DNA of 64,000 bases from Ruminococcus sp. AF31-8BH. Its GTDB lineage: Bacteria > Bacillota > Clostridia > Lachnospirales > Lachnospiraceae. Position numbers and translations under genes: made by a program. Shown piece by piece: positions 9,455 through 64,000 of this stretch; positions within the stretch are counted from its first letter, which is position 1, and every line of letters starts with the position of its first letter. The stretch spans positions 32,604 to 96,603 of the forward strand of contig NZ_QTVN01000019.1 of assembly GCF_003460605.1 (NCBI RefSeq). Reading direction: 5' to 3'. A model generated the notes under the pieces. The model was not told where the DNA came from. It worked only from the letters and a program-made list of their open reading frames with translations, and did no database searches.

Positions 9455-9557
9455 TAGCAACGGGTGCGGAAAATATATCGTAAGCAGCCTACTGCTTTTC
9501 GTTTCACGGCGACTCCCCAGCCAGTGAACACTTGACGCATAAATTCCTACTTCGCTA
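9455..9557 (-). promoter_or_regulatory. Tetrahydrofolate (THF) riboswitch upstream of folT
   Basis: Read on the minus strand, the leader has the conserved THF blocks in order: GAAGTAGGAA, then GCGTCAAGTG, then GGGGAGTCGCC, then AACGAAAAGC, and the 3' block CCGCACCCGTTGC. The outer stem pairs TAGCGA (9552-9557) with TTGCTA (9455-9460). The P3 arms GTTCAC and GTGAAAC also pair. Directly downstream is a short hairpin ATGAGA-ACA-TCTCAT without a T-run, so control may be translational. Placement before folT is the classic context. Confidence 0.9.
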
Positions 9558-50283: not shown

Positions 50284-50317
50284 AAGTGTCTGCCCCATAA
50301 GCAGGCACTTATTTTCT
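50284..50317 (+). terminator. Terminator of the XRE regulator gene
   Basis: Arms AAGTGTCTGC (50284-50293) and GCAGGCACTT (50301-50310), ten pairs including one G-U, with a 7-base loop, then ATTTTCTT. Confidence 0.8.
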
Positions 50318-50345
50318 TGTGCGAAAAGAGCCGCAATGTTATAAT
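50317..50345 (+). promoter_or_regulatory. Promoter of the PqqD-HprK-like gene
   Basis: TTGTGC (50317-50322), 17 bp, TATAAT (50340-50345). A short inverted repeat GTAACTGTACAGTTAC (50358-50373) lies just downstream of the expected start of transcription and could be an operator. Confidence 0.75.
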
Positions 50346-50408
50346 TTATCTGATTTCGTAACTGTACAGTTACCTGCTTTCATTAACAGGAAAGGAATTG
50401 TTTTCACT

Positions 50409-51581
50409 ATGTTTCAGTGTCAACGCGGATATACGCTTCGAAAAATAAAAGGAGTCAGTCATCTCCTTCCTTACGGACAGCAGATGGCGGATCAGAAAAA
50501 GGGAATGATTCTCAACGAGACCGGGACTTTTCTGTGGAACGTGATCCAGCATACAGAAGGTTCGGACCCGGAAACGCTGGCGGAAATGCTGGCGCGGCTG
50601 TATGGTCTTGGGGAAGAAGCTTTCCCGGAGGTCTTAAATGATGTCAATGATTTTTTGTCGCAGATGACCGCTCTTGGAATGATAACCGAAAGCCTTAAGC
50701 CCATTTCCCATGCATGCACTGCCAGCATAAAAATTGCCGGGCTTTCTATCAATTTCTACGGTCCTGTCCAGCTTCTTGGCGACCGCTTTGCGGATTTTTA
50801 TGTTAACCATCCGGCAGATGAACCAGATCAGGAAATTGAATTTATCACAAGGTCCCCTGCCAGCCACAATTATGGGCAGGTGCTTCTTCGCAATTCGGAT
50901 ATGACTATTTTTGAAAACAGCGACCGCTATGTGGTTTTGTTTCCTCAGATGTCAAATATTCATGAGGTACATATGACCCTGGACGGCAGCTATGTTCGGT
51001 TCTACTGTTCCAATGCAGTCACAGATCAGACGACAGAGAATCTTTTTCATGCTCTTCGTCTGTTTTTCTTGTTTCTTGCACAACAAAACGGATTGTTTGC
51101 CATTCATTCAGCATCCATACTTTACAGAGAAAAGGCATGGCTTTTTTCCGGACACTCCGGCATGGGCAAATCCACCCACACCGGGCTCTGGCATCAGCTT
51201 CTTGGCACACCCTTTCTCAATGGTGATCTGAATCTTCTGGGAATCCATGAAAACCGAATCATGGTTTACGGCATTCCCTGGTGTGGTACTTCCGGAATTT
51301 ATACCATAAAGACCTATGAGCTTGGAGGAATCGTCCTTCTCGGCAGGGATCCTGCCAGAGATTATCTGGAAGAGCTTTCCCCCTCGGGCCAAATCCTCCG
51401 GGTAATGCAAAGAATGATCTCCCCGACCTGGAAAGAAGGTCAGCTGACTAAAAATCTTTTCTTTGCCGAAGAAATCGCAAATCGGGTTCCCGTACTCCAT
51501 TTGTTTTGTACGAAAAACCAGTCTGCTGTAAAAGTCATCCGGGAAGAGATTGACCGACTGGAGGTGCTCCATGAAAAATAA
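50409..51581 (+). CDS. PqqD-domain / HprK-like P-loop fusion protein
   Basis: A protein of about 390 residues. The first 90 residues look like a PqqD-type peptide-recognition domain (KKGMILNETGTFLWNVIQ, then a helical segment). The rest resembles the HPr-kinase-like proteins of RiPP clusters: a beta-rich middle, then FAIHSASILYREKAWLFSG leading into the Walker A loop GHSGMGKSTHTGLW (about 248-261), a second Asp motif LNGDLNLLGI, and PWCGTSGIY. PqqD domains bind leader peptides; HprK-like enzymes in such clusters may phosphorylate the peptide or play another role. The start at 50409 follows AAAGGA at a rather long spacing. No precursor peptide gene was found. Confidence 0.78.
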   Translation: MFQCQRGYTLRKIKGVSHLLPYGQQMADQKKGMILNETGTFLWNVIQHTEGSDPETLAEMLARLYGLGEEAFPEVLNDVNDFLSQMTALGMITESLKPISHACTASIKIAGLSINFYGPVQLLGDRFADFYVNHPADEPDQEIEFITRSPASHNYGQVLLRNSDMTIFENSDRYVVLFPQMSNIHEVHMTLDGSYVRFYCSNAVTDQTTENLFHALRLFFLFLAQQNGLFAIHSASILYREKAWLFSGHSGMGKSTHTGLWHQLLGTPFLNGDLNLLGIHENRIMVYGIPWCGTSGIYTIKTYELGGIVLLGRDPARDYLEELSPSGQILRVMQRMISPTWKEGQLTKNLFFAEEIANRVPVLHLFCTKNQSAVKVIREEIDRLEVLHEK

Positions 51582-52248
51582 GCTCCAGCTGATCTGGAAA
51601 TATCTCAGACAGGGAACACTGCAGAAAATGTGGCGGCAAACGCTCTGGATCTATCAATACGGAAGACGTTACTGGAAATCCATGATCCTGTATACACTCC
51701 TTGGAATTACAGGCTCCTGCGTTTCTCTGGTTTCCAGTCTGATTTCCAAGGATCTGGTAGACATTATCACCGGACATCAAACCGGAAAGCTGCTCTCCAC
51801 CTTTGCTGCAATGATCGGTTTTTCCATAGCTAACATTCTGGTTTCCCAGGCATCCGGCTATGCATCTACCTTCATCAGCCTTAAGGTGGATTCCGAGATT
51901 AAGAACGACATTTTTGCAAAAATGCTGATTACTGACTGGGAATCCCTGACAGATTACCACACCGGAGACCTGGTCACCCGCTGGAGCTCAGATGCTTCCA
52001 ATATCTCCAGCGGAATCCTGAACTGGATTCCCAACCTGATCATTTATACCTTCCGTTTCATCAGTGCCCTGGCTGTAGTCTTGTACTATGACCCCACCTT
52101 TGCCTTATTCGCCCTTCTTGGAATTCCTTTCAGTGCTCTGATGTCCCGTCCCCTTCTTAGGCGGATGCGGAACAATAATGAAAAAAGTGCTGCTATGAAT
52201 GCCAAGATGTACGGCTTCAACCAGGAAGCTCCATCTGAAGCAGTCTAG
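51571..52248 (+). pseudogene. ABC exporter, truncated: transmembrane domain only
   Basis: The gene starts inside the end of the PqqD-HprK gene (GGAGGT 5 bp before the ATG). It reads 225 residues of an ABC exporter: helices near 35-55, 70-90, 150-170 and 175-195, with YHTGDLVTRWSSDASNIS (about 130-147). It then reaches NAKMYGFNQEA, where exporters continue toward the ATPase domain. Instead it runs into sequence antisense to PelF and stops. The whole nucleotide-binding domain is missing. It would have exported a modified peptide. I regard it as broken. Confidence 0.82.
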
Positions 52249-52996
52249 CACGAGCATACAGGCAGGTAACAATATCTGCCTTTTCATAGGCAAGCAAAGA
52301 CATCTTTTTAAATTGTTCAATCCAGATATTTTTGTAAGCTCCTTTTACCCACTCAGCCTTGATCAGTTCTTCTTCTCTCTCTCTGGTATAAATTCCATGC
52401 TCTGAGATCAACAGTGAACTGTCATGGAAATGAACAGCCATGCTTCCAAGGACTCCTGCATATCCGGTTGCCACACAGTGATAAAGATCCGCCTTTGGTA
52501 TATTCATCTTTAATACCCAGAACATAGGAAGATAAATAGAGCGTAAGGTCCATAAAAAATCAGAAAATATAATACCAGAATATTTTCTGTTGTAGCATTC
52601 CCTGGCAATTTGAAAGAAATCCGGCCCCATCAGTAAATCATCTATGGACAGATTTTTGCGTTGAAACAAATCAAACAGAATATTCCAGTCTGTTTTTCTG
52701 TTCAGAACCATATTCAGCATCTCTGCATATTCTTTTTTCGACAAACGGATATGCTTCCTGTTTTTCTGTCTTTTTTTCCCGTTATTCCACTCACAATCCT
52801 CCAGATAAACTTCATACACCTGTGTTACATTTTTCGGAAGTTCATATACAAATTTACCTCTTGAAGATCTGTTCGCTATAATTGTTAATAAAATAAATTC
52901 AATATTTGGAAATGACTGAATCAGGCTGTTGATCCAACCGGAAACACCGCCGACCACATATGGATAACAGCCCTCTGCCACAATGCAAACCTTCAT
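52217..52996 (-). pseudogene. pelF: PelF-like glycosyltransferase, truncated after the N-terminal domain
   Basis: The first 255 residues match the DUF3492 N-terminal domain of PelF: KVCIVAEGCYPYVVGGVSGW (1-20), DLYHCVATGYAGVLG (about 173-187) and LLISEHGIYTREREEELIKA (about 199-218), up to KADIVTCLYARARLLQMEL. Homologues continue with the GT-B donor-binding half (another roughly 220 residues). Here two codons and a stop follow. PelF is the UDP-sugar polymerase of Pel exopolysaccharide. The start at 52996 overlaps the upstream stop as ATGA. Without the catalytic half it should be inactive. Confidence 0.85.
52224..52231. other. Breakpoint joining two truncated genes
   Basis: Plus-strand exporter homology ends at the codons for NQEA (to 52230), and minus-strand PelF homology ends at the codons for MEL (from about 52229). 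The two meet at AGGAAGCTCC with at most a few shared bases. Each gene then picks up a stop within a few codons. This marks a deletion, inversion or assembly join. Confidence 0.75.
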
Positions 52997-54807
52997 TTTT
53001 TTCTCCACCGTTCCTGCAATTTTATTTCCACCGTTGTATCTTCTGCGCAGATCAGATAGGCATCCTCCTGAATTTTTATCTGGCTTCCACCTTGTATATC
53101 TGCGATTTCCTCTCCATGTGTTCTGAGAATAAACCAGCTTCCTGCCAAAGAGGTTTGCAGGATTATTTTATTTTCTTCTCTTTGCTCACTGTAATCCAGG
53201 TTCAGGAATGTTCTGGTTCTTGTATTACTCTCTGAAAGCGTAGTACTTGCAAAACAGGAAAACTCTTTCCAGTATGTGAGAAGGTTGCTGGAAAAACGCT
53301 TCTGCATTATTTCCCAGCGGTCGGTATCCTTCTGCGGCCAGAAGATATCATACATATTCAGCATAACATTTGTATATCCAAGTGCACTCTGAATACTTCT
53401 CATACGAATATCATCACTGTATGTATAATTCATTCCATCGCTTGTAACAGACTGCAGCGTTACGAAATCTGAGCAATAAGAGAGGACAGGCTTCTCTTCT
53501 GTGTATTCACAAATCAAAGTACTTACATTTTTCAGCAGCTCTGTATTCTCCAGCTGCAGAACAGAATTAATATTTTTTGCTTCCGTAAAAGCAGTTCCAT
53601 ATATATAACTGCTGTTTTCATTTTGGAAAAATTCATCATCCTTTTTCAGTTTTTCTTCAAAAGAAGCTGTATTCTGATACTGCAAAGAAAGTCCTGCTTC
53701 CGCATTTTGTTCCTTCATCTGCTGAAGATAGAATTTCAAGTTTTGGGCATCTGGCTCTATACTGTCCTCGTAATCTGCCTGAGGCTGAATAAAGCAAGTC
53801 ATTTTCCTGCCGCTTTTTTCCACAATAGAAATCAGGGAAGACCACATAATATCTCTGGCAATTCCAGTCATAGACTGGCTATAAAGTTTCTGCATTTCTT
53901 CATTATTTTCATCTGCAAAAACAGGGAAATTCACCATTGAAAGATTCTGTGCATTTACTACGGGATATAGAGTATACTCTGAGCCTTCCGCAAGCATACC
54001 ATCAAGAAGCCCAAGAGCTGTGCTGTCTTTCATATAATCTCCTACTACTGCGAATACACTGCTATTATTCAGTCCGTTTCTCCAGATCAGACTTGGAAGC
54101 TCTTCATTTCTCACATTTTCACCAGAGCTTTCATTAAGCAGTCCCATCATATAAGTTGTGGTTCCGCTTCCAAGCTGGTACCATGGAACCTTCAGCTGCA
54201 AATCCTGCCTTTCCTTTTCATCCTCTTCCTTACCAGCTTCATAAACCACACTTCCGCCAAGCAAAAGTCCATCAAACAGTTTTACCCCGGTTAGAGTCGT
54301 TTCATTAGCAGCAACTTTTTTAATTCCCAGGAAATCCATTAATTTAGGAATGGCTTGTATTAGTTCCGGATTTTCCAGACAGCCAAATACTACTATGACT
54401 CCCTGGCTTTCCATTTTTTTCAAAGCCTTCAGATCATTTCCAATCGCACGCTTTTCAGATTCCAGAATAATCATTTCCGGTAGCTCTTCTGCTCTTTCCT
54501 TCAGATCTGATGCAGATTTCTCAAAGCAAATTTCTCTTTTGGCATAGGTACACCATCTGCTTACTGCTACTGCCATATCACAGGATTCATCCCCTATAAA
54601 AACGATTTTTTTCCGCTTCTCAAAAGCTTCTGTACCCTCTTGTGCTGAAGCCTTCCATTCATTTTTTCCATCTGCTGCCTTTGGTGAAAAATAGGAGTTC
54701 GTATCATAGGCATTCTGCTGATCTCGCATAACAACTGAAAACTGAAATAAAAACAGCAGTACAAGCATCATAATTACAATACTGAAATATTTTCTTTTCG
54801 AAACCAT
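52993..54807 (-). CDS. DUF2194-type protein, likely PelA deacetylase counterpart
   Basis: A 604-residue protein with one N-terminal membrane helix (about 8-25) and a long external region. The segment VVFGCLENPELIQAIPKLMD and a later portion with MTCFIQPQADYEDSIEPDAQ and VMLNMYDIFWPQ suggest the DUF2194 family, in which a deacetylase-like TIM-type domain follows a Rossmann-like N-part. In Gram-positive Pel operons a PelA deacetylase protein takes this position. The metal residues of the deacetylase are not obvious to me, so activity is uncertain. It lies between the PelE-like and pelF genes. Confidence 0.65.
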   Translation of the reverse strand: MVSKRKYFSIVIMMLVLLFLFQFSVVMRDQQNAYDTNSYFSPKAADGKNEWKASAQEGTEAFEKRKKIVFIGDESCDMAVAVSRWCTYAKREICFEKSASDLKERAEELPEMIILESEKRAIGNDLKALKKMESQGVIVVFGCLENPELIQAIPKLMDFLGIKKVAANETTLTGVKLFDGLLLGGSVVYEAGKEEDEKERQDLQLKVPWYQLGSGTTTYMMGLLNESSGENVRNEELPSLIWRNGLNNSSVFAVVGDYMKDSTALGLLDGMLAEGSEYTLYPVVNAQNLSMVNFPVFADENNEEMQKLYSQSMTGIARDIMWSSLISIVEKSGRKMTCFIQPQADYEDSIEPDAQNLKFYLQQMKEQNAEAGLSLQYQNTASFEEKLKKDDEFFQNENSSYIYGTAFTEAKNINSVLQLENTELLKNVSTLICEYTEEKPVLSYCSDFVTLQSVTSDGMNYTYSDDIRMRSIQSALGYTNVMLNMYDIFWPQKDTDRWEIMQKRFSSNLLTYWKEFSCFASTTLSESNTRTRTFLNLDYSEQREENKIILQTSLAGSWFILRTHGEEIADIQGGSQIKIQEDAYLICAEDTTVEIKLQERWRKK

Positions 54808-54830
54808 TGTTTCTTTCCGTCCTTTTTATT

Positions 54831-55739
54831 TCACATAAATGTTCGGATCATTTCCAGAGTTTCATTATCAATGGCAATTTCTGATTCCTTTAGTTCATCC
54901 ATTACACGAAAAAAATTATCCCGGTCATTGCAGGAATAAAACAGCTTCAGCTGACAAGTAAAGCTGGACAAGGCTCTTGGATATTGTTTCATGGAACGCT
55001 GGCACCATTTACCACAGGTCTCATATTCCTTTACGTCCAGAAGGCTCTGACATATCTTTTCATACATCGTACTGCTGATTTTCTGAGAATCCAAAATCCA
55101 TGCCTTTTCCAGAACCTCATCCATACGTTCTGCCATAGAATGCTGTTCCAGATCTGTAAGTACCTTTTGCTCTATAATAGGATTCATATACTCAATCAGA
55201 TGAATACAGTTCTCTGCCTGCTTCTCGTCCTCAACCAGGCACAGACGGTATCTTTCATGAACGCCTGTACGAAAATCATTTAATACCTCCTGAAGAACCG
55301 ATGCCGCATAATGGGCAGTTTCTGAATCTTCACTGTTTAGCGCCAGGGCAATAGCGGAAAGAGAATGTTTATAGTCTCCTCTGATTACATTCATCATAAG
55401 TGTTCGCAGGCTTTTTTTGTCTGAAACCTCCAGAGCCTCTTCCAGTGCCACCATATTTTTTTCTACATCCTCATCAGGTCGTTGAAGGGTATCTGTCCGT
55501 TCCTTGCTAAATACCACATCTGAAAGATCCATTCCCTGCGAAGCAAAAAGCTTATATAATAAAAAGGAGCCTAATAGAAACAGCGGTCCTACCACCGGAC
55601 AAAGAAGCATCATTCCTGCCTTCATCCATATGCTGGCATATTTTTCTTTTCTTCTTAGGTGCTCAAAGATCAGATAAATCACAATGACCACTAGATTTAT
55701 CAGCATTAAAAGGATAAAATATCTCATTCTTTGTGACAT
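54831..55739 (-). CDS. PelE-like membrane protein with helical repeats
   Basis: A 302-residue protein. Two N-terminal helices (about 8-25 and 40-65) are followed by a soluble all-helical region with TPR-like pairs (e.g. HYAASVLQEVLNDFR, MYEKICQSLLDVKEYETCGK). This is the layout of PelE, which interacts with PelD and PelG in the Pel synthase complex. Sequence similarity is low, and the call rests on topology and gene order. It begins overlapping the PelD-like gene; a start at 55727, giving an ATGA overlap, is an alternative. Confidence 0.7.
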   Translation of the reverse strand: MSQRMRYFILLMLINLVVIVIYLIFEHLRRKEKYASIWMKAGMMLLCPVVGPLFLLGSFLLYKLFASQGMDLSDVVFSKERTDTLQRPDEDVEKNMVALEEALEVSDKKSLRTLMMNVIRGDYKHSLSAIALALNSEDSETAHYAASVLQEVLNDFRTGVHERYRLCLVEDEKQAENCIHLIEYMNPIIEQKVLTDLEQHSMAERMDEVLEKAWILDSQKISSTMYEKICQSLLDVKEYETCGKWCQRSMKQYPRALSSFTCQLKLFYSCNDRDNFFRVMDELKESEIAIDNETLEMIRTFM

Positions 55740-57913
55740 ACTGCTATATTCTCCACAACTTCCGTATTATATCCGTTCCTGTCAAATCGTTCCTGAACAA
55801 AGACAGCATTTGCTCTGGTTGTGTTTGCAAGAAGCACATACAGATTGCCGTCTGTCATCATATCAAGATAATCACTGTCTCTAAGATGGCTTGTCATTAT
55901 TTCATCAATTTCCATCTGGCGATCTGGTGAAATACATATCTTTAGTAATACACATTCTGCCAGGTTTCTGATTTCTGCATCCATATATGCCTGGACCAGC
56001 GGTTCAAAAGCCTCCGGACTGAGAATTCTGGAGCCTTTTTTATATCTTTGTGCTTCAAGGGCCTGAATATAACGCTGGGCTCTAAGAACTGCATTCTGAA
56101 TCATGTAACTGACTACAGTAAGGAAGTTCGCCTGCCCCAGAGTCATTTTTTCCCAACTCAGCCCCCACAACATCACAATCATCTGAATTTCATCATCTTC
56201 AAAAATCGCACATGCCATCTGCGGATACTGATCATTCATTCGCTTATTGATATATACTCTTTTTTCACTCAGAGCCTCATAAACCTCTGTCATGTCTTTA
56301 TATCTGATGGAATTCCCAAGACTCCTTGCTTTCTTCGAGCTTGCTGAAAAAATACGGGCATAATCTTTATTCACCACATTATAAATAGCCGCATCTTTCG
56401 TTTGCATCAGTTTCGTTAACATTTCTACAGCATAGAAAATTACTTCATCTGGCATATACTGATCCAGTTTAGATGTAATAGAGTAAATTTTACCAATACT
56501 ATCCTTATGATCAATCAGCTGCTGCTCCATAACTCCCTTTACACGAACATTGCTTTCATTAATGTCCTTGATATCTGCAATCTGTCTGGATAAGTGTTCC
56601 TCCAGCTCCTGACTCTCCATGCGCATTGTTCGGATCTGATCTCGCATATAGCCTACTACCAGTCCCAAAATAAACAGCTGTGCCACCCACACATAAGTAT
56701 TATAATCCAGAAGGACCTCTAATCCACTTCTTGTATACATCTGGCGGAACATATATCCGGCTACTGCAAGTATGGCAGAAAAGGTAGCCTGCTGCTGTCC
56801 ATATATAATAGCAAACAGAAGAACATATAAAAGAAAGGGATCCAGATTGGCAAAATACCTGCTTCCAACTGTTCGGTTATTCAACATAAAAAAGGGAATA
56901 AAGCATATCAGATTTTCTGCAAAGGGAACCAGCACACTTAACAGCCATTTCCATTTATTCCACAGCTTCTGCCACCAGGACGGCTGAAGCTGATCCTCCT
57001 CCACAAACACAGCCTTATGCTTCAGCATATATGCTGCCATTTTTTCAATGATCTCATCCGGCTTTGCAAATGCATGCACGCCGTATTCTTTTTCAAAGCA
57101 TTTCCCGGACAGTACACATCTGCTTATATCACCTGAAGTTGCAATAACATTTGCTGTGCTATTCATAGCTTTCTGAACCATTGAAGCCAGTTCCAGTTCA
57201 CTTACCACATGATTAGAGGACAGCTGATACAAAAATTTCTCATGAAGTTTATTTTTTACCACCTGATAAATAAATTCTACTGCATCATCCTCATATAAAA
57301 GAGAAAAGGAATGCTTCTCATTGGCCTCTATATATCCATTGCGCATACAGTCCAGGCACATACGCGCACAAATATTATTGATATCCTTTTTGTCTCTGGG
57401 AATACTGTAAAGATGATCCAGTCTCAGCACTACAATATCCAGATTTCTTTTCCGTCTGAAATTATCACAGATTTCTTCAGCCTGGGCAATGGTATCTGCA
57501 CGCAATCCAGCACTGGAGGTTGGGGTTTCTTCTATGATTTCATCCTGGTAATCTCCGCTATATACTTCGTCGGATGACAGAAAAATCACTTTCCCCTTCT
57601 TCGTTGCTGAGAGTGCAACCAGAATGTTCATCAAATGGGAAGTAAATCGAACGGTTTCCAGTTCTGCTTCATTCCAGGAATAGTTTGTATCAACTGCTCC
57701 CATAAGAATGGTCACATCCGGATTCACGCTTTGCACAATTTCCCCCAGATTTTCACTGTCATATGGAAATTCATATTTTTCGAATACTTTCTTGTATTTG
57801 TTGTGTCTGTATTTATCTCCGGTCAGTATATAGACTCTATGTCCTTCCTTGCGAATCTTCAAAATCAGACTATCCACGAGACTACAGGAGCCTCCTGCCA
57901 AAAGAATATTCAT
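55724..57913 (-). CDS. PelD-like c-di-GMP receptor fused to an epimerase-type domain
   Basis: A 729-residue protein in three parts. Residues 1-300 form an NAD-dependent epimerase/SDR-like domain (NILLAGGSCSLVDSLIL at the start, VIFLSSDEVYSGDY near 115). Residues about 325-435 hold four hydrophobic helices. A coiled coil (about 440-480) leads to a GAF-like domain (to about 610) and a degenerate GGDEF domain. The GGDEF loop reads MMTDGNLYVLL, but the allosteric c-di-GMP site RxxD is kept as RDSD (in SHLRDSDYL). PelD binds c-di-GMP this way and activates polymer synthesis. The SDR domain at the N-terminus is notable. Confidence 0.82.
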   Translation of the reverse strand: MNILLAGGSCSLVDSLILKIRKEGHRVYILTGDKYRHNKYKKVFEKYEFPYDSENLGEIVQSVNPDVTILMGAVDTNYSWNEAELETVRFTSHLMNILVALSATKKGKVIFLSSDEVYSGDYQDEIIEETPTSSAGLRADTIAQAEEICDNFRRKRNLDIVVLRLDHLYSIPRDKKDINNICARMCLDCMRNGYIEANEKHSFSLLYEDDAVEFIYQVVKNKLHEKFLYQLSSNHVVSELELASMVQKAMNSTANVIATSGDISRCVLSGKCFEKEYGVHAFAKPDEIIEKMAAYMLKHKAVFVEEDQLQPSWWQKLWNKWKWLLSVLVPFAENLICFIPFFMLNNRTVGSRYFANLDPFLLYVLLFAIIYGQQQATFSAILAVAGYMFRQMYTRSGLEVLLDYNTYVWVAQLFILGLVVGYMRDQIRTMRMESQELEEHLSRQIADIKDINESNVRVKGVMEQQLIDHKDSIGKIYSITSKLDQYMPDEVIFYAVEMLTKLMQTKDAAIYNVVNKDYARIFSASSKKARSLGNSIRYKDMTEVYEALSEKRVYINKRMNDQYPQMACAIFEDDEIQMIVMLWGLSWEKMTLGQANFLTVVSYMIQNAVLRAQRYIQALEAQRYKKGSRILSPEAFEPLVQAYMDAEIRNLAECVLLKICISPDRQMEIDEIMTSHLRDSDYLDMMTDGNLYVLLANTTRANAVFVQERFDRNGYNTEVVENIAVCHKE

Positions 57914-57938: not shown

Positions 57939-58967
57939 TTACATTTCAAATAAAGATTTCCGGCTCAGTCGTTGTTCCAAGGCCCCGTTGATTTCCTTCT
58001 GCACCTTCTCAAAATCAATTGCATAATTGCTGTCATTCACACATACCATAGGAATTTTGTGTTTTTCAATTGTTTTTGTCAGTTTGAGATTTTGATTCTC
58101 CAAATTAAAGTAACCACATAGCTTCTGCACATTTTGCGGAACAAAATCCCCCTGCAGCTTCTGGTATTCCCTAAGTACATACTGGCTTACATCCTCTTTA
58201 TGGCGGAAGGCATGACTGCACACACTTGTAAGCAGCTCCGGCTCCAGATTCCATAATGTTTCATAGGTACTTTTCTTTAAAGGTGAAGGACCATGTACCG
58301 TATAGAATCCGGTAAAGCGCGGAAATGCCAGTTCCATAATATTATATAAAAAATATACAGGTGGATATCCTATATGAAAATAAGCTCCCGGCTGTTTCTT
58401 CATATTAGGCCGCTTTTGAAAATATTTTGCCAAAAGCATCGTATTGTTCAGATAAATGTAAGGCATAACCGGATCGTCAATATTCGCCACATCAGGCTGA
58501 AATGCCAGCATGTCAACTGGTTTTCCATTCTGAAAAAAGTCCGTTTCTTTAACCTTGTCTATAAAAAACGTATCGTCATTGAAATAAACAAACTTTTCTG
58601 AAAGACCTTTTATTCTGTGAAAGTTCCATTCAATAGTATGGGAATTAAAAGTAGGTAAAAAATCTTTCGGAATAAATTCGTCATGTCTGACAATATTCAG
58701 CTTGGGATGTGCTATATTCAGCCAGTCCGGAATATGTCCCCAGGTCACAAAGTGTACTTTCCTCACCCAGGGAGCAAACTGTTCCACTCCTCGGAACCAA
58801 TATTGCAGATTATCCCAATCCCGGTATCGTTCTTTTCTGTTGTCTGTTTTCTGTATCTGTTCAGATGCCTGTGCTGCCAGATTCCGCTGTCTTTTCCATG
58901 CCGGATCATTTCCGTCAACCCAGGTAATCACAAAATCAATCTCTGATTTTTCTTCTTGTTTTTTCAT
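57939..58967 (-). CDS. Stealth-family capsular polysaccharide phosphotransferase
   Basis: A 342-residue protein with the Stealth blocks: CR1 IDFVITWVDGNDPAW (about 10-24), CR2 YRDWDNLQYWFRGVEQFAPW (about 48-67) continuing into HFVTWGHIPDWL, the segment EKFVYFNDDTFF, and a CR3-like HGPSPLKKSTYE. Such enzymes transfer hexose-1-phosphate units to build phosphodiester-linked polysaccharides. It lies 25 bp before the PelD-like gene and 3 bp after the DUF4832 gene, which implies a polymer or decoration with phosphodiester links. Confidence 0.92.
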   Translation of the reverse strand: MKKQEEKSEIDFVITWVDGNDPAWKRQRNLAAQASEQIQKTDNRKERYRDWDNLQYWFRGVEQFAPWVRKVHFVTWGHIPDWLNIAHPKLNIVRHDEFIPKDFLPTFNSHTIEWNFHRIKGLSEKFVYFNDDTFFIDKVKETDFFQNGKPVDMLAFQPDVANIDDPVMPYIYLNNTMLLAKYFQKRPNMKKQPGAYFHIGYPPVYFLYNIMELAFPRFTGFYTVHGPSPLKKSTYETLWNLEPELLTSVCSHAFRHKEDVSQYVLREYQKLQGDFVPQNVQKLCGYFNLENQNLKLTKTIEKHKIPMVCVNDSNYAIDFEKVQKEINGALEQRLSRKSLFEM

Positions 58968-58970
58968 AAG

Positions 58971-60326
58971 TCACCACAAAAAATTCTTTCCAGATTTAAA
59001 TTCACACTGCATTGCAAATCGAACATTCATTTTTCCAGTCATTGGATCTTCCACGCCAACGCTTATGCTATATTTTTCTCCTGCAAGCTTCAGAAGTTCT
59101 TCTGTTTCCAATAAAGTAGCGGTATGAATTGATTCGCCGGGAAGAACCGATGGCAGAAGAATTTCAACCTGCTTCTTTTCTATTGTGTTCCCAGTTTCAT
59201 CAGTTACGTAAAGCCAAACCTTCCAATTTTTATAAAACGGTGCAGTTCCATTGTTTTCCCAGGTAAGCTCCAATTTGGCACCACCAGGACTCCAGGACAG
59301 AATTGCTTCTGAAATCCATAAACGATAGCCCATATTTTTCAAAACAGTTTCATATCCCTGCAAAAATCCGGGATTTGCTGCATTTGGTCCCAAGAAGGTA
59401 GTATGCGATTCCCGAATCAGTTCTACGGTTTGAGAAAGGCTGGCTTTCAGCATTTCTTCCATTGAAAGCGAACTGGTAAACTCTCCGCCTACAGGAGCCT
59501 TTTTCCAGAAATCTGTCATAGAAACCAGAGCTTTTTCTTCATTTGTCTGGCTAAGATCACCACCAGCTTCAATTTCATTAAGCCATGCCGCCGTCTCACT
59601 TGGTTCCCCTGTCATATCATTATAAAGACCTGTTTTGTATTTTGCAGCATGAGAAAAGGGTCTTCGCATCAGCAGCATTGCCTCAGGAAAGGCATCCACC
59701 CAGGGCGACACATACTGTTCCCTCACATCTTCCAGTGGAAGCCTCTGAATTCCTGCGCTATAATTCACATGCCATTCTCCCCAGTGTCCAAGACTTCCAA
59801 GCTCAATATAGCTAATCAATCCATCCTGTCCCCAATGTTCTCCCATCGCTTCCACAGCTTTTCTGTGATATGCAATAAATTGTTCCTTGTTATAATCCGG
59901 GGAAAATCCCTTTCCAAATTCCACATCATACCAGGTTCCTGCCTGATCTGTTTTTTTATACAGCCATTCAGGAATATCCATATGCTTCTCTGCTCCCGGC
60001 ACATCGCAGACAAATCTTAATACAATGTGTTTTCCTTCTTCTCGCCAGCGGTCAAGCTGATTCTCTTTCTCAATTTCTTCCCAGTTGTACTTTCCCTCTT
60101 CTGGCTCCAGTTCTGCCCAGGTAACATCCATATATAGCAGAGAAACATCCTCACGAACCTCTGCATTCCATGCGCAGGGGGCATAACCCATAAGTGGGTT
60201 TCCAAAAACCTCTTCTGATGGTTCATATTTTTGGATATTCCGCTGAGACAATACACAAAGCGCAATAACTGTTATCATAAGCAATACTGTGCCAAACAGC
60301 AACCACTTCCATCGTTTTATTTTCAA
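58971..60326 (-). CDS. DUF4832 protein, TIM-barrel glycosidase-like, membrane anchored
   Basis: A 451-residue protein with an N-terminal membrane helix or uncleaved signal (about 8-25). The barrel region has NPLMGYAPCAWN, LLYMDVTWAELEPEEGKYNW (about 63-82) and IELGSLGHWGEWHVNYSAG (about 171-189), as in DUF4832/DUF4874 proteins and related GH families. Glu and Asp in these motifs are plausible catalytic acids. The last 110 residues form a beta domain (LELTWENNGTAPFYKNWKVW). It probably trims or processes the exported polymer at the cell surface. This is inference from context. Confidence 0.78.
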   Translation of the reverse strand: MKIKRWKWLLFGTVLLMITVIALCVLSQRNIQKYEPSEEVFGNPLMGYAPCAWNAEVREDVSLLYMDVTWAELEPEEGKYNWEEIEKENQLDRWREEGKHIVLRFVCDVPGAEKHMDIPEWLYKKTDQAGTWYDVEFGKGFSPDYNKEQFIAYHRKAVEAMGEHWGQDGLISYIELGSLGHWGEWHVNYSAGIQRLPLEDVREQYVSPWVDAFPEAMLLMRRPFSHAAKYKTGLYNDMTGEPSETAAWLNEIEAGGDLSQTNEEKALVSMTDFWKKAPVGGEFTSSLSMEEMLKASLSQTVELIRESHTTFLGPNAANPGFLQGYETVLKNMGYRLWISEAILSWSPGGAKLELTWENNGTAPFYKNWKVWLYVTDETGNTIEKKQVEILLPSVLPGESIHTATLLETEELLKLAGEKYSISVGVEDPMTGKMNVRFAMQCEFKSGKNFLW

Positions 60327-60355: not shown

Positions 60356-62740
60356 TTATTCTCCCAAATTATATAAATGTTCCGGATTTTGCTTCACTAC
60401 ATAACATATAAAATCTTCATCTTCATAATAAACCTTAAGTTCATAAGGAAAGCGCGTTTTAAATTCCTGACACCAGTAATACATCTCCGATTCCAGAATC
60501 CTTCGGTTTCCAATAATAGAATAGGCATCAGAAGCTTTACCCATAATTGTAAGTGATTCGCCCACCAATTCCTCTGAAATCTCTCCGTGTTCAATATTAT
60601 CTCCTATGCTTAAAACCGCAGTAGTATATTCATAATACTTTGTATATTTATCTTGCGCAAGCCATCTTGGTCCTGAAAAGAAATGATGCTGCGCATAATA
60701 AATAGGATTTTTCTCTATATAGAAGAAAAGATATTCTGTAGGAATATAATAATCCTCCTGCTTGGATCTGTTATAAAATTCAAGAATTTCCTCATGTCTG
60801 GCTTCTTCTATTGACTGGTACAATTCCTCTGTTGTAGATATAATTGTATAACTGTACTGAGGATAATCATCCATAATTTTATTTGTCAGTTCCACTGCTG
60901 AATTGTATCGTGTCAGTTCATAATATAAGTAGCCGTGAAACACTCCGAAATAATTTGTCCCTGCATAAATAGCCAGCACTCCTGCGAAGCTGATCTGGGG
61001 CATAAAGCATCCGATCCTTGTTTTTTCCAGCAGAAAAAACAGTTCGTCTGCAGGAATTACCATCATTGCCAAAAGCAGAATCTGTTCCGGTAAACACAAT
61101 CTTGCTCCTGCAATAATTTCCGGCAGTCCAAGAAACGGTGCTGCATAAAGAATCATAAACAAAACAGATGCAAATGTGATCCCCGCATACATTTCAAAAG
61201 GAATTTTTTTGAAACGTACGATGGTAATTCCCATATTTATAATACTAAGAAGCACAGCTGCCAGCGTAAAACCAATCAGCCAGTTCGCTCGGTTACCTCT
61301 GTAAAGCTGCGCATAACCATACCGATAGACCGCCTTTAAATTGTTCAAAACAATCTGTATTATTTTTTCTGCTAGAGAAGTTTTTGTCACCTTTACGTTG
61401 GTTTCATTCTTATCTGTTTTATTTTTGTCTGTTGCTTTTATCTGATTATGAAGCTTTGACTGCCCTGATAAAGGATTTTCATTACTATCAGCTTCTGCGG
61501 CCTTATTTTCCTCAGTTTTTTGGCCTTGTTCCATAACAACCTGTGCAGCTTTCGTTCTGCCCTCTTTGGTATCTGTACCATTTATAATGTTCATTCCCCA
61601 GTTCAAAGAGCCCTGAAGGGGAATTCCAGAAGCAAAAGCCAGAACCATAGGTGTTGTAGAAATAATCACTCCTACAAGTATCGCCGTAGCCAAAGACCAG
61701 AAATTTCTTTTCCTGAAAATTCTGTTAATACCAAAAACAGCAAAAGATGCGCACAGAAAAAATGCCATGATTGTAACATAAAAATGGATTGCGAGAGACA
61801 CTGCCAATGAGGTCATAAACAAAAACAGATTCTCATCAAAGCCTCTTTTTTTATTTCCGTCTTCGGTATTCCTCCTCATAAAGCGGACAAGATACATTAC
61901 ACACAAAAACAGGCTATATAAACCAAATTCCTGAGGAATGGTATACTGCAGACGGGATATTCCATAAATCTCAGCCGTATAGACCACATCTATTGTAAGA
62001 AATGCAGCCAGTATCAGATAAACCGTATATTTGGATCTCAATGTCTCTCTGAACAGACAATAAACCGCTGCCAGCAAGGCCGTTACATGAATCTCTCCCA
62101 GGAACAGCAGACAGCTGTATATGGATACTCCAAACAGCGCATCCATACAATAAATAAAACAGTGCATTGCCTCCGGATAGACTCCTGCTGAAAAAATCTG
62201 CCCTTCCTTCAATCCATAAATCCAGGCATGATGAACATACATATCGCCCGAGCCATAGGAATGATTCTGAAAGGCTCCATAAGAAAAATAAATAATAGCA
62301 AAAACCATAAGAACACTTAAAATGCTGTATTCAATTTTTTTTCCTTTTGTCTTTTCATCTAATTTTCTAAGCAAATCTGCAATAAGTGCTTTACACTCTC
62401 TTAGCAGATCTGCCAAAAGGGATTTCCACCCCAGGGTTCCTGCAAGAAGAGTCTGAAGCTGCCTGGATACATACTTCCGTAATTTTCCCTCGCGCAAAAT
62501 TGATACTGCAAAAATCCCATAAAAAGCGGCAAATACAATCCACCCTTTTAATATATGAAGCAAGCCCAATCCCAGGACAAGCGTGTTAAGCAACAGAACA
62601 GAAACTGTAGAGCAGAAGGCAAAACGAAAGGTCAGGCTTTTCCCGGATAGCTTTTTCCGAAAAATCACAGATGGCCATACATACATCAAAAAAGCATATC
62701 CGATAAACACTTTGATAAATTCAAGGATCCAATAAGCCAT
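60356..62740 (-). CDS. Large polytopic membrane protein of the exopolysaccharide operon
   Basis: A protein of about 794 residues with roughly 14-16 hydrophobic helices. Two soluble parts stand out: a Lys/Asn/Thr-rich loop (near residues 420-470) and a C-terminal domain of about 170 residues after the last helix. The layout resembles GT-C type glycosyltransferases or O-antigen polymerases; a possible Asp-rich first loop is SYGSGDMYVHHAWIYG (about 177-192). I do not recognise the exact family. The start at 62740 follows AAGGAGA at long spacing; an extension to 62815 would overlap the -10. It is the first gene of the operon. Confidence 0.65.
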   Translation of the reverse strand: MAYWILEFIKVFIGYAFLMYVWPSVIFRKKLSGKSLTFRFAFCSTVSVLLLNTLVLGLGLLHILKGWIVFAAFYGIFAVSILREGKLRKYVSRQLQTLLAGTLGWKSLLADLLRECKALIADLLRKLDEKTKGKKIEYSILSVLMVFAIIYFSYGAFQNHSYGSGDMYVHHAWIYGLKEGQIFSAGVYPEAMHCFIYCMDALFGVSIYSCLLFLGEIHVTALLAAVYCLFRETLRSKYTVYLILAAFLTIDVVYTAEIYGISRLQYTIPQEFGLYSLFLCVMYLVRFMRRNTEDGNKKRGFDENLFLFMTSLAVSLAIHFYVTIMAFFLCASFAVFGINRIFRKRNFWSLATAILVGVIISTTPMVLAFASGIPLQGSLNWGMNIINGTDTKEGRTKAAQVVMEQGQKTEENKAAEADSNENPLSGQSKLHNQIKATDKNKTDKNETNVKVTKTSLAEKIIQIVLNNLKAVYRYGYAQLYRGNRANWLIGFTLAAVLLSIINMGITIVRFKKIPFEMYAGITFASVLFMILYAAPFLGLPEIIAGARLCLPEQILLLAMMVIPADELFFLLEKTRIGCFMPQISFAGVLAIYAGTNYFGVFHGYLYYELTRYNSAVELTNKIMDDYPQYSYTIISTTEELYQSIEEARHEEILEFYNRSKQEDYYIPTEYLFFYIEKNPIYYAQHHFFSGPRWLAQDKYTKYYEYTTAVLSIGDNIEHGEISEELVGESLTIMGKASDAYSIIGNRRILESEMYYWCQEFKTRFPYELKVYYEDEDFICYVVKQNPEHLYNLGE

Positions 62741-62792
62741 TCTTTTGCGGTACTCTCCTTTGTTTTTAGTAAAATCCTCATTTTTTTGATTT

Positions 62793-62798
62793 AGTATA
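62793..62798 (-). promoter_or_regulatory. Putative extended -10 of the Pel-like operon
   Basis: Minus strand: TATACT preceded by TG one base upstream (extended -10). No good -35 at 16-18 bp; TTAATG at 16 bp is weak. The stretch 62799-62925 holds nothing else clear; a lone TTGACA lies at about 62899-62904. Confidence 0.5.
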
Positions 62799-62925
62799 CC
62801 ACATATTATTTTCACATTAAATGTTTATATTGGCAAGGGAAATAAAAATTCCGCCTTTAAATCAGCGTAAAATTACATAAAAATCACAAAAACACCATCC
62901 TGTCAAAGGAAATGCTCATTCATTT

Positions 62926-62997: not shown

Positions 62998-63906
62998 TTA
63001 TTTCTTATAGTCCTCTACATTTTCCTGTGTGACCTTATGATATGGTGTCCGGACATATTTTCCATCAATTAATGGAATACTATCCTTATCTCCATTGGTT
63101 GCAATGGCAAATGCAAGATTCAGCATTTCCCGGGCCTGCCCTTCTTTATCATTATAAACAGTTCCCAGCATTTCGCCATTTTCAACTGCCAAAAGTCCCG
63201 CATCTGTGCCATCAATTCCCACAACCCCCGGCCAGTCTTCTCTGGGAATCTGGGAATCACGCAGCGCATCAATTGCCCCAAGAGCCATGTCATCGTTATT
63301 CGCAATGATCAGCTCAATTTTTCCGTCAAACTGTGTAAGCAGCGCTGCTGTTTTTGTCTGTGCCTGTGCTCTGTTCCAGTTAGCCATCGCATAGCCCAGC
63401 TTCTCCGCTTCCACACCATTTTCTATCAAAGTGTTTACAGAATACTCTGTTCTTACGATGGAATCCTGATGTCCTGCTTCGCCTTCCAGCACCACATACT
63501 GGCAAATGTCATCACCGTTTTTGTCCATTTTGGCATTGGTCTTAAAGGCATTTGCAGCAAGTTCTCCTTCAAAAACTCCAGACTGCAGGGCATCTGCACC
63601 AACATAATACAATTCACTCCAACGTTCCAGATCCTCTGCAACCAGCTCACGGTTAAAAAAGATAATCGGCACCTGCTTGTTCTCTGCCAGATCAGTAATT
63701 GTTGTGGGCTCTGTGCGGTCAACCAGATTTACACATATCACATCACAGCCCTTCTCGATCAGACTTTTGACCTGCTCATTTTGTGTCAGCTGGCTCTGAG
63801 AAGCATCCATCACCTCCACATTGATTGCAACGCCGGTTGCTTCCTCTTTGTCCGCCGCGTACTCTGTAAACTTCGTCATCATTTCCGAAATAAATGTGTC
63901 ATACTA
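62998..63906 (-). pseudogene. Sugar ABC transporter binding protein (MglB-like), 5' end lost
   Basis: The open part from 63882 reads 294 residues of a galactose/glucose-binding protein: VEVMDASQSQLTQNEQVKSL (about 24-43), IIANNDDMALGAIDAL (about 189-204), VVGIDGTDAGL and MLGTVYNDKEGQA. Homology clearly extends upstream of the first Met: the codons before it read YDTFISE, a family-typical start of the mature protein, and an in-frame TAG (63904-63906) interrupts it. Beyond lies a repeat-like sequence. No signal peptide is encoded, so it cannot work as an exported binding protein as it stands. Confidence 0.75.
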
Positions 63907-63924
63907 ATCATATGTGCGAGCTGT

Positions 63925-64000
63925 GAAATCAGCATAGCTGATTTCCCCTAGAGTGTGTTTGAAAAATAAAAGTTGCACAAAACATATATTCGTTTACCCT
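63925..64000. repeat. Hairpin and partial MITE-like end at the right edge
   Basis: A perfect hairpin GAAATCAGC-ATA-GCTGATTTC (63925-63945) is followed by CTAGAGTGTGTTTGAAAAAT (63948-63967), which matches the terminal repeat of the element at 44370 at all but one of the first 19 positions. The rest of the element lies outside the window or diverges: after the repeat the sequence no longer follows copy 44370. Confidence 0.65.

Follow-up and report, generated by a model that had tools for sequence, protein, structure and literature searches.

Why do an ABC exporter gene and a pelF gene, lying on opposite strands, both break off at a single point in the genome of Ruminococcus sp. AF31-8BH? The stretch of DNA analysed here, hereafter called the window, is 64,000 nucleotides in length. 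As the sequence-only reading had noticed, the plus-strand exporter lacks its ATPase domain. The first 220 of about 589 codons, encoding the membrane part only, lie at 51571-52230 (Pfam and tblastn), and this stretch aligns in tblastn to residues 1-220 of the 589-residue exporter of Anaerobutyricum hallii. The exporter frame (51571-52248, plus strand) matches positions 1-185 of the 274 of the Pfam profile ABC_membrane and continues past the junction to a stop codon at 52246-52248; no ABC_tran domain was found in this frame by Pfam, and the exporter of Blautia luti has one. The upstream gene (50382-51581, plus strand) shows no break and encodes a PqqD domain (Pfam, 1.1e-7) and an HprK-like kinase, whose match to HprK_rel_B in the profile search is weak and below the cut-off. 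A single tblastn stretch, running through residues 32-427 of the 428, places this gene at window 50382-51569.

The minus-strand pelF had also been read as missing its catalytic half, and this proved right. Only the DUF3492 N-terminal part remains at 52217-52996, the glycosyltransferase domains being lost (Pfam and tblastn). DUF3492 is the sole Pfam domain of the frame 52217-53008 and the GT4 catalytic domains are absent, while both parts are present in B. luti; in tblastn, window 52996-52226 aligns to residues 1-257 of the 493-residue A. hallii PelF. The genes beside it lie on the same strand. A DUF2194 protein of the Pel-type operon (52993-54807) shows no break and gives a single match by Pfam and tblastn. 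According to Pfam and the relatives' loci, it is followed by a 302-residue protein without a Pfam match (54831-55739) and a 729-residue protein with an NAD-epimerase domain (55724-57913), which are both near PelF in some relatives, a Stealth-family protein (57939-58967), which in some relatives is inside the interval between the exporter and PelF, a DUF4832 protein (58971-60326), which is inside that interval in locus L098, and an 819-residue protein without a Pfam match (60356-62815), which is in the locus of some relatives. The DUF3492 N-terminus of PelF and its DUF2194 neighbour resemble the Lachnospiraceae exopolysaccharide operon of the Pel type (PelF/PelG). In contrast to the relatives, which have PelF and PelG together, the window has a truncated PelF, and PelG was not found in the window by tblastn. 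Elsewhere in the window, an MglB-like sugar-binding protein (62998-63999, minus strand) has an in-frame TAG just upstream of a 294-residue frame near the window end, and a THF riboswitch lies at 9456-9556 (minus strand).

Where exactly do the two genes meet? By tblastn and the relatives' DNA, the exporter and PelF homologies overlap by 5 bases, AAGCT, at 52226-52230, so that the breakpoint proposed earlier (52224-52231) was correct within two bases. The probability of a 5-bp overlap at a random join was computed to be 0.005. As judged from the alignments to relatives, the AAGCT common to both homologies would be a deletion junction, and it may have acted as the microhomology of the deletion. 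The A. hallii sequence has AAGCT on the exporter side only, B. luti has it on the PelF side only, and none of the relatives compared has it on both sides. A scan of 50300-55000 revealed no repeat at the join; long repeats at the ends are absent, and there is the short overlap only. A plasmid context for the junction region was rejected, since 50300-54800 had no match in the plasmid collection searched. Chance truncation of both genes is unlikely, as had been argued, and a single event fits two genes cut at one point better.

Was the join made in place, or were distant loci brought together? The flanks were aligned to related genomes, as the sequence-only reading had proposed, by searching these genomes with window 50300-54800. 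The closest named loci are those of A. hallii (L001) and B. luti (L002), whose PelF identity is 79-81%. A. hallii, B. luti, and others have both the exporter and PelF intact, as a convergent pair separated by 14-17 kb. A single contig carries both halves, with order and strand as in the window, and each half stops at the window breakpoint; the gaps between them are 13,964 bp in L064 (A. hallii), 14,286 bp in L065 (B. luti), 16,006 bp in L066, and about 17 kb in G019. Since the relatives' halves lie at one locus in the same order and on the same strand and end at the breakpoints, the window is best read as an in-place deletion, and the alternative of an inversion or a joining of distant loci was rejected.

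The conservation of this arrangement was assessed in a sample of 397 genomes from the family of A. hallii, in which exporters of at least 53% identity were counted. Leaving aside G357, where the contig ends inside the gene, there are 24 such exporters; all 24, uncut by a contig end, cover at least residues 14-571 of 589, and 18 of them have PelF within 20 kb. Four of the six others are near contig ends (G003, G307, the second copy in G096, and G455), which leaves two misses, G163 and G202 (PelF 31 kb away). The description of the two genes as parts of unrelated operons is thus not upheld; the two operons form one conserved neighbourhood. The search gave no intact allele from the species to which the window belongs. 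The PelF fragment P0121 (96%) was rejected as such an allele, since it switches to another species near residue 190; it is a recombinant or chimeric contig. For the acetyl-CoA carboxylase region, the closest DNA match has about 71% identity across most of the query and as much as 77% in short pieces.

What does the missing interval hold in the relatives? In L064 and L065, it contains the ATPase half of the exporter, a small leader protein, a signal-peptidase-like protein, and NTP_transf_5. The remainder comprises GT2 and GT4 glycosyltransferases, a flippase-like protein, DUF4832 proteins, a 123-residue protein, PelG, and the catalytic half of PelF. In tblastn, 11 of 21 locus queries, representing 10 genes because the signal peptidase was used twice, found nothing in the whole window, and all 11 are from the interval; one DUF4832 query from the interval matches only a distant paralogue in the window with 22% identity. 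Because the relatives' locus is collinear and intact and interval genes are missing from the window, the earlier suggestion that one event removed the remaining exporter and the pelF-pelG end is borne out, and it explains the absence of PelG, which is inside the relatives' interval. The same event had been invoked for the absence of a precursor peptide and a radical enzyme. The loss of a precursor is plausible, as leader-bearing small proteins are present in the matching interval of relatives. The interval genes from A. hallii and B. luti that were scanned with Pfam include no radical enzyme, and there is thus no sign that one was lost.

A chimeric assembly could also have joined two places. 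Public exporter fragments joined to foreign sequence do exist, and P0017, P0023, and P0053 have foreign Pfam domains. I searched for the same join in other assemblies, analysing the best 120 of 251 exporter relatives and the best 120 of 514 PelF relatives. Among the matches listed, at least three protein clusters from other assemblies have the identical join: P0001, a cluster of 156 members in whose representative the join was read, P0020, and P0038, which comprises three contigs, the longest being 60,123 bases. At the position of the window's stop codon (TAG), P0001 has Q and P0020 has W; P0020 and P0038 lack internal stretches with the frame kept. The recurrence of the join with strain differences in three clusters argues strongly against misassembly, which the sequence-only reading had left as an option. 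A chimera would need the same artefact in four sources, one of them with a contig of up to 60 kb, and both sides of the join belong to one locus in collinear order. This explanation is therefore so improbable as to be nearly negligible.

The same clusters bear on the idea that the short genes are functional, with selection keeping a membrane domain and a DUF3492 protein that each stand alone. Up to codon 220, a single residue separates the exporter fragment from P0001, and P0020 and P0038 keep the frame across their internal losses, as such selection would predict. On the other hand, the known active parts (ATPase and transferase) are gone, no PelG is present in the window, P0217, which is 94% identical over 60% of the window PelF, is frameshifted, and the 24 related exporters uncut by contig ends are full length. 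I give the functional short genes a very small chance, and the exporter and PelF remnants are probably non-functional and decaying.

The explanation that I favour, at a probability of about 0.9, is that one event of illegitimate recombination, at a short sequence common to both ends, deleted approximately 14-17 kb, and that the deletion was inherited and disabled both systems. Recombination at the short shared AAGCT would have joined exporter codon 220 to about codon 257 of the convergent pelF. Roughly 14-17 kb between these codons would have been lost in an ancestor of the strain, and the deletion allele would then have been inherited by several strains. Pel-type polymer assembly was probably disabled, with no PelF catalytic domain and no PelG nearby, and so was the kinase/exporter/leader-protein system, with no ATPase and no cargo gene seen. 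The loss may reflect relaxed selection or selection for loss. For spontaneous bacterial deletions, the portion of PMC3411829 cited here deduces a cut-off of at least 8 bp of junction homology for true deletions. The likeness to the deletions in that portion lies in direct deletion at a short overlap, while the putative overlap in the window is shorter, about 5 bp. The deletion itself is ordinary in kind; the hint of a hotspot and the leader/export system are the leads.

Is the exporter prone to break at this point? It may be that a breakage or recombination hotspot lies near exporter codon 220, from which deletions start repeatedly and run to varying downstream ends, the window being one product. 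I regard this as unlikely. Four A. hallii-type clusters (P0009, P0010, P0013, and P0030) depart from the exporter at codon 220 or 221, like the window, and then resume at the same locus on the same strand, in GT2b, in DUF2194, and at two points of the signal peptidase region; they are protein sequences only, each cluster has one or two members, and they may have come from assembly or from related strains. By rule, the 120 listed exporter clusters of 251 comprise 9 in-locus deletions of at least 300 bp, 17 frame changes or short gaps, 93 single stretches, and one opposite-strand join (P0060). P0007 was dropped due to a 42% match to another genome's locus, leaving eight accepted deletions, all in A. 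hallii-type exporters (P0009, P0010, P0011, P0013, P0021, P0030, P0054, and P0089). Four of these eight lie within one codon of codon 220, and the chance of such clustering is 4e-5 to 2e-6 for codon 220 and 0.0003-0.002 for any codon. The starts of the other four are close to codons 154, 172, 210, and 253. Eight fragments with tails not assigned to the locus (P0017, P0018, P0023, P0039, P0040, P0053, P0055, and P0065) have no break within 5 codons of 220, which is in line with a hotspot. P0010, P0011, and P0055 have one unplaced tail in common.

PelF served as a control. None of its 120 listed clusters has an in-locus deletion of at least 300 bp, and seven have a frame change or a short gap; in P0182, the frame changes on the same strand across a gap of 50 bases. 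The control is small, however: 12 PelF clusters have an identity of at least 95% to a fetched locus, compared with 27 exporter clusters. The contrast in in-locus deletions is modest (8 of 27 exporter clusters against 0 of 12 PelF clusters, p = 0.04), and the 8 were assigned to the 27 by eye. A frame change in P0051 falls at codon 221, so small sequence errors may likewise arise readily at this codon. By eye, the far ends of the hotspot-type deletions share 0-3 bases, and no shared core site was seen at the deletion ends. No recombinase was found among the scanned interval genes (L064 and L065), and attachment of a virus or prophage at the exporter site was rejected, as there was no viral match. 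A HindIII-like (AAGCTT) cause was weighed and rejected as well: the site is present at the A. hallii exporter breakpoint and near the far end of P0030, and the other far ends are without it. A fuller version is a little less likely again. It holds that deletions start recurrently and almost exactly at codon 220 in at least two gut lineages of Lachnospiraceae, where a cut, bound, or mobile-element-marked site leads to the removal of downstream DNA of the same locus to varying extents.

On the single-deletion reading, what was the lost export system? In the loci fetched around the relatives' exporters, I found 25 distinct proteins of 104-162 residues with a leader MKxYxKPVV...EGVYAASG (for example, L064:15507-15887 on the plus strand, and L065:4273-4650 and L098:1322-2530 on the minus strand). 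The pattern required YxxP (or FxxP) and [EDS]G[VI][YF]A[AG], which makes the alignment partly circular; beyond this requirement, the following SG is present in 25 of 25 and a V two places after the P in 22 of 25. These loci hold the PqqD/HprK-like kinase, the ABC exporter, and often the signal peptidase and NTP_transf_5. Leaders of the YxxP type are linked to PqqD-type recognition domains. Judging from the gene content of these loci, the leader proteins are probably the cargo of the exporter. The PqqD domain would bind the leader, the exporter would move the protein, and the signal peptidase would cut near VYA. Neither the pattern nor a tblastn search with the copy from A. hallii gave a leader protein in the window. 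None of five leader proteins tested reaches the Pfam or NCBIfam cut-off, a PDB sequence search with one of them gave no match, and the motif EGVYAASG was not found in the literature searched. According to the portion of PMC7533575 cited here, ruminal lasso-peptide clusters carry PqqD, HPr kinase, and nucleotidyltransferase, and the likeness lies in PqqD, HprK-like kinase, and NTP_transf_5 occurring together. Unlike those clusters, the interval genes scanned with Pfam in L064 and L065 (the 123-residue protein excepted) include no lasso cyclase or transglutaminase, and the putative cargo here is 104-162 residues in length.

These results show that the apparent wreckage of two genes in a single contig is a real allele shared among strains, and they point to a leader-protein export system beside Pel-type genes that is apparently undescribed. 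The exporter/Pel region may be lost recurrently in gut strains. If the hotspot is true, the site would shed the kinase/exporter/leader-protein module, and in the longest cases the neighbouring Pel-type genes as well, and such loss may perhaps be selected by phage or host.
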